Assembly (NCBI RefSeq): GCF_003932495.1
Contig: NZ_QZMT01000004.1
Location: 124,001-188,000 of the forward strand
DNA: 64,000 bases
Direction of reading: 5' to 3'
From: Guyparkeria sp. SCN-R1
GTDB taxonomy: Bacteria; Pseudomonadota; Gammaproteobacteria; Halothiobacillales; Halothiobacillaceae
The notes under the pieces: generated by a model
The model's database searches: none
Told to the model about the DNA's origin: nothing
The model's input: the letters and a program-made list of their open reading frames with translations, nothing else
Program-made: the position numbers and the translations under genes
Shown here: positions 17,537 to 55,278 of the stretch, in pieces
Numbering within the stretch: position 1 is the stretch's first letter
Layout of the letters: every line of letters begins with the position of its first letter

Positions 17537-17890
17537 ATGGCAGCAGGAGGCGGCCTGGGTGGAGGCATGATCCACCACAACATCCCGGACAAGGACACGC
17601 TCTACAAGTCCTACATGCCGTTCGTGAAGAATGGCGGACTGTTCATTCCGGGGCACACGCAGATACCGATGGGCAAGGAGATCTTCCTTACCCTGACGCT
17701 GATGGGCAGTCCCGAGCGGCTTGCCGTGGCCGCCAAGGTGATCTGGGTCACCCCGCAGGGTTCGCAGGGCGGCAAGGTGGCCGGCATCGGCGTTCAGTTT
17801 GGCCGCATGGACCAGGGCCGCACGCGCCAGCAGATCGAGACCTACCTTGCCGGGGCGCTGGAGAAGGAAACACCGACTTACACCATGTAA
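17537..17890 (+). CDS. pilZ: Type IV pilus PilZ protein
   Basis: A 117-residue single-domain PilZ protein. MIHHNIPDKDTLYKSYMPF and NGGLFIPG match the type IV pilus PilZ class rather than canonical c-di-GMP receptors, and the RxxxR motif is absent. In Xanthomonas this protein bridges FimX and the PilB ATPase. A FimX-like protein is encoded at 56943-59036, so a FimX-PilZ relay is plausible. It directly follows holB as in Pseudomonas. A structured repeat begins one base after its stop codon. Confidence 0.93.
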   Translation: MAAGGGLGGGMIHHNIPDKDTLYKSYMPFVKNGGLFIPGHTQIPMGKEIFLTLTLMGSPERLAVAAKVIWVTPQGSQGGKVAGIGVQFGRMDQGRTRQQIETYLAGALEKETPTYTM

Positions 17891-17891
17891 C

Positions 17892-18153
17892 GGAAGCTCT
17901 ACAGGGTGCAATGGCATCTCTGCGGACGCGCCAAGGGCTCCGCGTTTTAACGGCCTCGCCCTTTGATGAGGGTGGTAACGTCAAAGATGGGTCCTTGGCG
18001 GCCCGCCCAAATGGGGCATGCGGGTTTGTCCGCACTCGGCGTTGCCGTCGCTCGGCGGGCCCGGGTGATTGCTCTGGGCCCGCCTTCGGTCCGGCGCCTT
18101 GATTGCGAACAAACCCGCGAGCCAGAGATGCCATTGCACCCTGCAGAGCTTCC
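17892..18153 (+). repeat. Structured inverted-terminus repeat, copy 1
   Basis: A 262-bp element lies between pilZ and tatD. Its ends, 17892-17922 and 18123-18153, are 31-base inverted repeats matching at 30 positions; each outer end reads GGAAGCTCT and each inner end GGCATCTCTG. Inside, CGCCAAGG (near 17927) pairs with CCTTGGCG (near 17993), GCGGGTTTG (near 18019) pairs with CAAACCCGC (18110-18118), and GGCGGGCCC pairs with GGGCCCGCC. The 3' interior (GCGCCTTGATTGCGAACAAA) is shared with copy 2. No coding capacity or function is evident. Confidence 0.85.
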
Positions 18154-18186: not shown

Positions 18187-19011
18187 ATGCAACTGTTCGA
18201 CTCGCACTGCCACCTCGACCGGGTGGAACTTGACGCCTTCGGCAACGACTTCGACCGCTTCATGCACACCGCCTGGCTGGAATCGGTCACGCGGATGCTC
18301 TGTGTCTCGATCAAGCCGTCGAGCTGGCCGGCGATGACCGAGCTGGTATCGCCGTATCTTGCCGGCAACCCCGAGCGGCGGGCCGAGCGTCCGGAGGTAT
18401 TCCTCTCCTACGGTCTGCACCCCACCGACGATGCCGGGGCCGTGATCCCCACCGACGAGCTGGTGCGGGCGATCCGCGAGGACCGGCACGCCGATTCGAT
18501 CGTGGCGGTGGGCGAGACCGGGCTGGACTACTTCCACTGCGAGGAAGGCGAGCGTTGGCAGCACGACCGCTTCGTCAATCATATCGAGGCGGCCAAGGCC
18601 GTGGACAAGCCGGTGATCATCCACACGCGCGGGGCACCGGGTGACACCATGGACGTGCTCGAGCGCGAGCATGCCGAGGAGTGCGGCGGAGTGATGCACT
18701 GCTTCGCCGAGGACTGGGAGACCGCACGCCGGGCACTGGACCTGGGGTTCTACATCTCCTTTTCCGGCATCGTCACCTTCAAGTCGGCCGCCTCGTTGCG
18801 CGAAGTGGCGAAGAAGGTGCCCGGTGACCGGATCCTGGTCGAGACCGATTCCCCCTACCTCTCGCCGGTCCCCTTCCGTGGCAAGCCCAACAACCCGATC
18901 CGCGTTCGCCACGTGGCCGAGGTCCTGGCCGACCTGCGCGGCGAGAGCCTGCCGGAAATGGCCGCCCGCGCACACGAGAACACGCGGCGCTGGTTGAAGC
19001 TGGATAACTGA
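18187..19011 (+). CDS. TatD-family metal-dependent hydrolase
   Basis: A 274-residue TIM-barrel hydrolase. Metal-binding motifs are DSHCHLD at the N-terminus, VGETGLDYF, IIHTRGA, MHCFAEDW and the C-terminal ETDSPYLSP. Family members act as DNases or peptidyl hydrolases; the exact substrate cannot be read from sequence. The start at 18187 gives the usual N-terminus; the frame is open upstream into the structured repeat but that is not coding. It ends the fab-pab-tmk cluster and converges on mltD across a bidirectional terminator. Confidence 0.92.
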   Translation: MQLFDSHCHLDRVELDAFGNDFDRFMHTAWLESVTRMLCVSIKPSSWPAMTELVSPYLAGNPERRAERPEVFLSYGLHPTDDAGAVIPTDELVRAIREDRHADSIVAVGETGLDYFHCEEGERWQHDRFVNHIEAAKAVDKPVIIHTRGAPGDTMDVLEREHAEECGGVMHCFAEDWETARRALDLGFYISFSGIVTFKSAASLREVAKKVPGDRILVETDSPYLSPVPFRGKPNNPIRVRHVAEVLADLRGESLPEMAARAHENTRRWLKLDN

Positions 19012-35619: not shown

Positions 35620-36090
35620 TCAGAGTGCGCCGGCGCGGCGCTTCTCCAGGTAACGTTGATGGTAGTCCTCGGCAGGCCAGAAGGCCGAGGCCGGCACGAT
35701 CTCGGTGACGATCGGGCGACCCAGCGTGGCCTGGTGTTCGTCGCGCACTCGTTCGGCAATTTCGCGCTGGTTGTCGCCACGCGTGAAGATCGCCGAGCGA
35801 TATTGCGTGCCCACGTCCGGGCCCTGTCGATTGGGAGTGGTCGGATCGTGCATCGAGAAGAATGCCCGGGTCAGCGTTTCGAAGTCGATCCGGTCGGGGT
35901 CGAAGCGCACCTCGACCGCCTCGGCGTGTCCGGTGCTGCCAGTACAGACCTGGCGGTAACCCGGGTGATCGACCTGCCCGCCGGTATACCCCGAGATCAC
36001 ATCGATCACGCCGGGCAGCTGACGGAAGCGATCCTCCACGCCCCAGAAGCATCCCGCGGCAAAGGTGGCGATTTCGGTTTCCTGGATCAC
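35620..36090 (-). CDS. msrA: Peptide-methionine (S)-S-oxide reductase MsrA
   Basis: A 156-residue enzyme that repairs methionine S-sulfoxide. The active site is in FAAGCFWGVEDRF, with YTGGQVDHPGY and GTQYRSAIF also conserved. The start is a GTG at 36090 with GGAGG 8 bases upstream; the frame is open further, but only through the next gene in antisense. The resolving-cysteine C-terminus of longer MsrA forms is absent. Confidence 0.94.
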   Translation of the reverse strand: MIQETEIATFAAGCFWGVEDRFRQLPGVIDVISGYTGGQVDHPGYRQVCTGSTGHAEAVEVRFDPDRIDFETLTRAFFSMHDPTTPNRQGPDVGTQYRSAIFTRGDNQREIAERVRDEHQATLGRPIVTEIVPASAFWPAEDYHQRYLEKRRAGAL

Positions 36091-36170
36091 GGTCGGGCCT
36101 CCGGTTTGTTTACCATCCGGTGACAATAGCGCATCCGCCGTCGATTCGAGCCAACCGTGGAGTACACCCC

Positions 36171-37205
36171 GTGACCAACGCCGACAACGGCATCCCTCAT
36201 CCATCGTCCTTCGTCTCTCTGGCCGACTGCCTCGACTGGATCGAGCCGCGGTTGCTCGCGGCCCACCAACACCACCTCGAGCGTGGCGAGCCGGCCAAGG
36301 GAACCTCGGCACGATTGGATGACGTCTCTGCGGGACCTCCAAGGGTCCAGATGCAAGGCGCAGTCCGCCGCGAAGGGCCGTCGCCCTTTGCAAGGGCTGC
36401 AACACCGCAGATGGGCCCTTGGAGGCTCGCCCGGACGGGGCTCGCGGGTTTGCCCGCACTCGGCGTTGCCGCCCCTCGGCGGGCAACGAGCCCGCCTTCG
36501 GTCCGGCGCCTTGATTGCGAACAAACCCGCGAGCCAGAGATGCCATCCAATCGTGCCGAGTTTCCCGGAATGCCGTGGTGGCCGGCCGGCTACGCGCACG
36601 ATGCCGAAGGGCGTGCCTTCGAGATCGCTGTCGGCGCCGTGCTCACCCAGAACACCAACTGGAACAATGTCGAGAAGGCGTTGGCCAACCTGCACGCCGC
36701 CGAGGTGCTGGATGCCGCCCGTATCCTGGATCTGGACGACGAAAACCTGGCCGAACTGATCCGCCCCTCGGGCTTTTTTCGCATCAAGACCCGCCGTCTG
36801 CGGGCCATGACCGAGGCATGGCAGGGCGCCGGGGGACTCGATGGCCTGCAGGCGCGTCCCACCGACGAGTTGCGCGACTGGTTGCTCGGCATCCATGGCG
36901 TCGGCCATGAAACCGCCGACGACATCCTGCTCTACGCCCTGGAACGCCCCGTCTGGGTAATCGACACCTACACCCGCCGTTTGTTCCATCGCCTCGGCTT
37001 CCCCGACACCGCGGCGCGCAAATATGACTTGCTGGCCGACGACCTGCTCACACACACCCGCGAACCTACCGCCACGCGTCTTGCTCGCTGGCACGGCCTG
37101 ATCGTCGAGCACGCCAAGGCGCATTGCCGGGCCAAGCCGGCCTGTGGTGGGTGCCCATTGCTTGAGCGGTGTGCTTATGGGAATGGTTTGGAGGAGGGCA
37201 GGTGA
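36171..37205 (+). CDS. HhH-GPD DNA glycosylase with in-frame repeat
   Basis: A 344-residue endonuclease III-related protein. Residues about 143-344 are the HhH-GPD domain with VGAVLTQNTNWNNVEKAL, the hairpin LLGIHGVGHETADDIL, the catalytic-type Asp in VIDTYTRRLFHR and a [4Fe-4S] motif C319-x5-C325-x2-C328-x5-C334. The Lys of Nth is replaced by His in GVGHETA, so a monofunctional glycosylase or a divergent member is likely. Residues about 43-132 are encoded by structured repeat copy 2, and the frame stays open through it. The start is GTG with GTGGAG upstream. Whether the long linker is tolerated is unknown. Confidence 0.85.
   Translation: MTNADNGIPHPSSFVSLADCLDWIEPRLLAAHQHHLERGEPAKGTSARLDDVSAGPPRVQMQGAVRREGPSPFARAATPQMGPWRLARTGLAGLPALGVAAPRRATSPPSVRRLDCEQTREPEMPSNRAEFPGMPWWPAGYAHDAEGRAFEIAVGAVLTQNTNWNNVEKALANLHAAEVLDAARILDLDDENLAELIRPSGFFRIKTRRLRAMTEAWQGAGGLDGLQARPTDELRDWLLGIHGVGHETADDILLYALERPVWVIDTYTRRLFHRLGFPDTAARKYDLLADDLLTHTREPTATRLARWHGLIVEHAKAHCRAKPACGGCPLLERCAYGNGLEEGR
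36299..36566 (+). repeat. Structured inverted-terminus repeat, copy 2, in frame
   Basis: A 268-bp element inside the HhH-GPD gene. The ends, 36299-36330 and 36535-36566, pair over 32 bases with three mismatches. Inside, CCTCCAAGGG pairs with CCCTTGGAGG (10 bp), AAGGGC pairs with GCCCTT around a CGTC loop, GCTCGCGGGTTTG pairs with CAAACCCGCGAGC (13 bp), and GGCGGGC pairs with GCCCGCC. This predicts a three-way junction. The frame of the host gene is open right through it. Confidence 0.87.
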
Positions 37206-55089: not shown

Positions 55090-55278
55090 AGGGAAGGCCT
55101 TCACGAATACCCAATGCCTCTGGCTGACTGGCTGGTTCGCCATCAAGGCGCCGATTCGAGGGCGGGCTCGGTGTTGCAGCGCTTGCCAATGGCGACGGCC
55201 ATTGGGCGGCGCAATGCGCCTTGCATCTGGACGTCTGACGACCTTCAGAGGCGTTGGCTATTCGTGAAGACCTTCCCT
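55090..55278 (-). repeat. Structured inverted-terminus repeat, copy 3, short
   Basis: A 189-bp element in the epmB-PilZ gap (54975-55302), inverted relative to copies 1 and 2. Its ends, 55090-55122 and 55246-55278, pair over 33 bases with three mismatches. On the minus strand it keeps GTCCAGATGCAAGGCGCA, CCAATGGC-CGTC-GCCATTGG, GCTGCAACACCG and GGCGCCTTGAT, as in copy 2, but lacks about 90 central bases. It ends 24 bases before the ATG of the next gene. Confidence 0.83.

Follow-up and report, generated by a model that had tools for sequence, protein, structure and literature searches.

The three repeats present in the analysed stretch of the Guyparkeria sp. SCN-R1 genome (64,000 nucleotides of contig NZ_QZMT01000004.1, hereafter the window) are copies of a gene-free mobile DNA element of about 266 bases, an IS5-type MITE according to its ends and target duplications. 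Taken as a whole, the data make it highly probable that these elements are non-autonomous IS5-type MITEs of about 262–272 bp, in which IS5-type arms subject to arm copying enclose a folded twin-hairpin core whose hairpins are under selection. The covariation of the terminal arms and that of the hairpins have two different sources, and both explanations offered for it in a preliminary description of this DNA are right, each for a different part of the element: a conserved structure of RNA or DNA, and repair of one arm from the other as the element spread.

All three elements of the preliminary description are present, as are the examples of inner-stem covariation that it quoted, and the exact limits of the copies could be set by their target duplications (Table 1). 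Within copies 1, 2 and 3, the two arms agree at 30, 28 and 28 of 32 nt, respectively. The genome (2.42 Mb, 68 contigs) contains at least 43 two-ended copies, short and dispersed, together with many remnants, and comparable copy numbers were found in several sister species of the genus. Since more than 40 related copies exist in the own genome and many more in other species, chance is excluded as the source of the three elements. The arms were described earlier as differing between copies in their middle; this holds mainly for the inner half, positions 5–6 and scattered private positions, which differ between copies and agree within each, while the outer 19 bp or so (GGAANNTCTGCACGAAT) are nearly constant in all copies except copy 1, which is an outlier. 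Several remnants consist of almost nothing but arms, with lengths of 55 bp (L353), 68 bp (L168) and 92 bp (L169 and L351); L353 is orthologous to the full copies L104 and L358, so its interior was lost in place.

Table 1. Features of the three element copies in the window, with copy limits set by target duplications
Feature	Position	Strand	Remarks
Copy 1	17892–18153	+	262 bp; begins 1 nt past the stop codon of ORF 17537–17890; next start codon at 18188
Copy 1, left terminal arm (P1)	17892–17922	+	
Copy 1, hairpin A, degenerate	17923–18002 (limits approximate)	+	AAGGCG..CAACGC motif lost, fold retained; unmatched by model R1
Copy 1, hairpin B	18014–18124	motif on minus strand	model R1 match, 40.2 bits, E 5e-8
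Copy 1, right terminal arm (P1')	18123–18153	+	
ORF interrupted in frame by copy 2	35862–37205	+	HhH-GPD domain at residues 257–384
Copy 2	36300–36565	+	266 bp; in frame within HhH-GPD (endonuclease III-like) gene
Copy 2, left terminal arm	36300–36330	+	
Copy 2, hairpin A, conserved motif	36331–36430	+	model R1 match, 80.5 bits, E 1e-18
Copy 2, hairpin B, inverted relative of hairpin A	36438–36536	-	model R1 match, 53.3 bits, E 2e-11
Copy 2, right terminal arm	36535–36565	+	
Copy 3	55092–55276	-	185 bp; internally deleted, much of the interior gone
Copy 3, terminal arm, low-coordinate end	55092–55122	-	
Copy 3, leftover of hairpin A, with motif	55169–55223	-	model R1 match, 39.2 bits, E 9e-8
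Copy 3, terminal arm, high-coordinate end	55246–55276	-	

A search with joined flanks revealed uninterrupted empty sites for all eight of the own loci analysed, each in at least one sister species. The site of copy 1 is empty in sister genomes G001, G002, G006 and G009, and that of copy 3 in G001, G006 and G009. In the clearer alignments, the empty site has a single 4-bp target and the filled site two; in some species a decayed remnant occupies the same locus (L370, L378). The HhH-GPD gene has gained exactly 270 nt through copy 2 and its 4-bp duplication (266 + 4), which keeps the frame. Among 99 copies, 11 have identical non-palindromic 4-bp flanks versus 3.1 expected, and none of 10,000 shuffles reached this number. 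The flank consensus is YTAR-like (C/T-T-A-G/A), so that empty sites and flank statistics together define a 4-bp target duplication of the YTAR type. The preliminary description had argued that a transposon end would be constant across copies. This argument fails, since insertion with target duplications is evident from the empty sites and the outer arm corresponds to inverted repeats of the IS5 family; the ends vary because the arms are homogenised within each copy and different lineages bear the ends of different IS5 relatives.

The terminal arms are about 31 bp long, and their outer 19 bp or so correspond to the inverted repeat of an IS5-family transposon. A plasmid search with the arms of four lineages revealed an IS5-family transposase beside the match in all five loci opened, three of which had been picked partly because an IS5 element was already annotated under or near the match. 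The IS5-family element of pADP-1, located next to atzC, has the ends GGAATCTCTGCACGAATC and GGATGGTCTGCACGAATC, both matching the arms, is flanked by TTAG duplications, and encodes a protein with DDE_Tnp_1 and DUF772 domains. Both ends of IS5-family elements in Burkholderia glumae (862 bp) and Halomonas (863 bp) also match, and thus the MITE shares its ends with autonomous IS5-family elements. A poorer second-end match was found for an IS5 element of Lactiplantibacillus, and no second end within range for one of Azotobacter; two of the five inspected loci have no clean second end (none in L424, 16/22 in L426). Single end matches of 20–23 bp are weak alone (E 0.06 to 4), and therefore the weight lies on the second end, the duplication and the adjoining transposase. 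An IS5 element with the ends GGAAGGTCTGATCAAT is present in a relative from the same family (G019).

Within the genus, no IS5-like transposase with matching ends was found in 11 genomes (G000–G010), and a search for DDE_Tnp_1 yielded only one, unrelated gene (L167). Around 66 sites that have the motif but no compact element, neither an IS5-like gene nor a distant inverted partner was detected. In the complete sister genome G009, matching ends enclosing 3.5 kb, the only large pair there, were considered as an autonomous version and rejected, since they span ordinary genes and represent two separate remnants. An autonomous partner in the same genome or genus is usual for a MITE, although it is not essential for old copies. 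As the 11 genus genomes yielded no IS5-family partner with such ends, mobilisation is deduced from the ends and duplications: an IS5-family transposase supplied in trans would move the elements. In the sampled genomes of the genus, which have dozens of IS5-type MITEs but in which no matching transposase was found, the parasite seems to have survived its helper.

The covariation of the terminal arms fits an origin mainly through copying of one arm onto the other. In 96 genus copies, the 13 outer positions that are constant show 40 deviations in one arm only and 20 identical deviations in both arms, with no discordant ones, while independence predicts about 0.6 identical both-arm deviations. Transversions account for 10 of these 20 changes and cannot be explained via a G·T intermediate, since they cannot pass through one; a few of the both-arm cases are common to orthologues (L077/L407, L071/L414). 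Arm positions 5–6 agree in 87 of the 96 copies versus 32% by chance. Mismatches in the terminal stem (P1) are equally often G·T (93) and A·C (101), as counted in the genus set only, orientation being arbitrary in the wide set, and the terminal stem is therefore without sign of selection as a folded single strand. The arm-to-arm repair proposed earlier is thus borne out for this part of the element. Presumably, the element folds back and one arm is copied onto the other by template switching or a similar process, which would keep the arms complementary; a change in the transposon end gained on one side would spread to the other in the same way. Template switching at quasipalindromes offers a parallel (PMC8604942, PMC8794818). 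Orthologous copies differ mostly by single-sided changes, with one clear double change in situ, from A-T to T-A in a hairpin stem (L183 versus L346), indicating that arm copying is either occasional or tied to transposition.

The core between the arms consists of two hairpins of about 98 nt in inverted orientation, the predicted folds following one another as hairpin A, a small hairpin of the GCCCnnnGGGC type, and hairpin B. Hairpin A carries the bulge motif AAGGCGC-stem-CGCnG-hairpin-CAAG-stem-GCAACGC, and a related motif lies on the opposite strand in hairpin B. Both in the window and outside it, a covariance model (R1) built from hairpin A sequences only also recovers hairpin B, which lies inverted at a distance of about 107 nt. 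In 50 diverse sequences of hairpin A, 86.7% of the pair cells are standard and 29 of 33 pairs have changed on both sides; the covariation score is 0.707, while shuffles gave 0.19 and slid pairings no more than 0.18. The excess of compensatory changes, on which the preliminary description had staked its case, is therefore present in the hairpins by a test simpler than R-scape. On the motif strand of hairpin A, G·T exceeds A·C by 65:22 and 36:0; hairpin B shows the same preference on its own motif strand (16:4, and 113:6 in the genus). These counts carry shared descent uncorrected, with distinct inner stems alone giving the same direction. The idea of a conserved RNA or DNA structure is upheld for these two hairpins by their covariation and strand-specific G·T excess, whereas the terminal arms covary with no wobble preference.

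The massive compensatory change and the G·T excess on the motif strand of each hairpin indicate that selection acts on each as a folded single strand. Likewise, the inverted arrangement points to an element that would work independently of its orientation, presenting one motif-sense hairpin whichever way it lies. The strand-specific wobble bias suggests that something common in the hosts could recognise the folded single strand, either single-stranded DNA or an RNA read through the element, and the hairpins would be kept for this reason. At columns 18/87 of alignment A1, the U-G (T-G) wobble is the commonest pair state, found in 23 of 50 sequences from unrelated hosts, which suggests specific reading. 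Another observation is that the same hairpin-rich insertion of about 72 nt (AACCGGATCGGC...GCCGATCCGGCCGGCGCAAGCCGGCCCGAAGGGC...) occurs at the same site of hairpin A in L083, L170 and L354, and less clearly in L082 and L180; these copies belong to different subfamilies, and the insertion is either a second element with a fixed site or the result of exchange between copies.

With a cutoff of E 0.01, model R1 matched 107 of 398 Pseudomonadota genomes, against about 4 expected by chance if the E-values, which are rough, hold. The motif pattern of hairpin A was found in 53 of 369 genomes of the class versus 4 for the same pattern read backwards. Hosts among the matches listed include Pseudomonas, Stenotrophomonas, Acidovorax, Delftia, Variovorax, Herbaspirillum, Thioalkalivibrio, Halomonas and Azotobacter. 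At least 90 complete elements are among the matches listed, mostly 264–272 bp long across families. In 90 of these, the arms agree on average at 92% of positions within an element and at a median of 40% between elements; 45 of the 90 also have a strict second motif on the opposite strand (0.2% when shuffled), although the search made no such demand. The core thus recurs across Pseudomonadota with almost every paired base replaced and behind many different pairs of arms. Of 72,556 plasmids, 4 carry the Pseudomonas-type element nearly whole, and none of 50,697 phages does; in this near absence from plasmids and absence from phages it is unlike many IS-derived elements, and the plasmid cases include Pseudomonas aeruginosa PA83 (L420) and Azotobacter pAcX50f (L421).

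Some of these elements appear to have exchanged their ends. The cores of L199 and L303 are 91% identical, while their arms are unrelated on both sides, the break falling at the base of the core (TTCAG/CTGAA); L259 versus L276 and L287, and L208 versus L267, are further cases, with core identities of 82–91% across the swaps. Such swaps were judged only from pairs above 0.8 identity, since in global alignment pairs near 0.6 are meaningless (the median of all pairs is 0.57). As closely similar cores carry unrelated pairs of arms, core and ends have separate lines of inheritance, and a new end captured on one side and then copied to the other arm could explain how both arms were replaced. One could tentatively hypothesise, with more doubt than confidence, that the core is a separate phylum-wide unit persisting by repeated change of transposon ends, both arms being replaced through fold-back copying, and that a conserved factor of the host or of transposition recognises its hairpins in folded single-stranded form.

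Strong hairpin covariation and the G·T preference would also be in line with a primarily structured RNA, either a small RNA or a cis-acting mRNA element, that transposition happened to spread; for example, a readthrough transcript would meet the motif-sense hairpin first either way, which could limit insertion polarity or stabilise the message. The location of copies 1–3 within or between co-directional genes, one of them in frame, agrees with this proposal, as does the dyad arrangement, which yields the same 5' hairpin from both strands. However, the G·T preference lies on opposite strands for hairpins A and B, so that no single transcript explains both, it is missing from the terminal stem, and folded DNA also favours the G·T wobble. 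Nor did Rfam provide a match: none at the gathering level was found in the window, and the one match in five other hosts was at chance level and outside the element. A primary role as RNA therefore appears rather unlikely.

An ordinary IS5 MITE in which quasipalindrome template switching alone maintains the pairing of all stems, inside and outside, and the fold is unselected, would account for the arm copying evident in the terminal arms, and such switching can create and maintain stems (PMC8794818). However, it does not predict the conserved unpaired positions of the motif, the constant element length across families, or an excess of G·T over A·C on the motif strand in the hairpins but not in the terminal arms, which makes it improbable. 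Conserved extrahelical bases combined with freely varying stems recall the logic of integron attC sites, which recombine as folded single strands and are moved by a tyrosine recombinase; the 4-bp target duplications and IS5-type ends, together with the lack of an R-box pair (RYYYAAC / GTTRRRY) conserved at the stem base in alignment A1, read by eye, leave very little probability to such an origin. The preferred interpretation, a MITE with copied arms and selected hairpins, separates two usually confounded causes of covariation and provides a natural test of the origin of compensatory changes and of how a small parasite changes the transposase on which it depends. It also cautions against taking covarying stems in a mobile repeat, on their own, as evidence of a functional RNA.

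A gene-free element with very strong structural covariation is thus present in about a quarter of the sampled Pseudomonadota genomes and absent from Rfam and the literature searched: no description of the element or its core was found in the open-access literature searched. A tRNA scan of the window was empty. By its ends and duplications, the element can be filed as an IS5-type MITE with a core for which the literature searched offered no precedent. ERIC, NEMIS and bcr1 are likewise small mobile elements with a potential for RNA or DNA folding, each restricted to one group; to our knowledge, none has twin inverted hairpins or swapped ends. IS5-family insertion sequences, such as that of pADP-1, share the outer 18–23 bp or so of the ends and the 4-bp target duplication of the YTAR type, but the pADP-1 element encodes a transposase and could not accommodate the hairpin core, and its own ends are unlike each other (17/22), while the arms of the element described here are homogenised.

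Among the nearest descriptions found are those of bacterial MITEs, including R0 and R2 of Pseudomonas fluorescens SBW25 (PMC2718517), which are also short, gene-free and dispersed in many copies and share inverted ends with insertion sequences. The present element differs in being GC-rich, in its folded core conserved phylum-wide behind different ends, and in having no insertion sequence partner found in the genus. The Betaproteobacterial repeat elements (BRE) of Bordetella, Delftia and Polaromonas (Hot et al. 2011; PMC3110155), again among the nearest found, are GC-rich, chromosomal and partly from the same host genera; compared by description only, they are units of about 75–91 bp arranged in tandem in variable number, with no terminal arms or fold reported (PMC3110155). 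On the same comparison by description, BRE is possibly one hairpin or a fragment of the element core. REP and REPIN sequences with TnpA-REP (PMC2817692, PMC8266576) are likewise palindromic, chromosomal, multi-copy and devoid of their own transposase, but they are units of 20–40 bp tied to the REP-associated tyrosine transposase, as opposed to 266 bp with IS5-type ends and a target duplication. An assignment to REP/REPIN, defined as a 20–40 bp palindrome with a GTAG-type tag, was rejected, given a unit of 262–272 bp with another conserved motif. Apart from these comparisons, the insertion of copy 2 adds 90 residues to a DNA-repair-type protein, which recalls the palindromic elements of Rickettsia.
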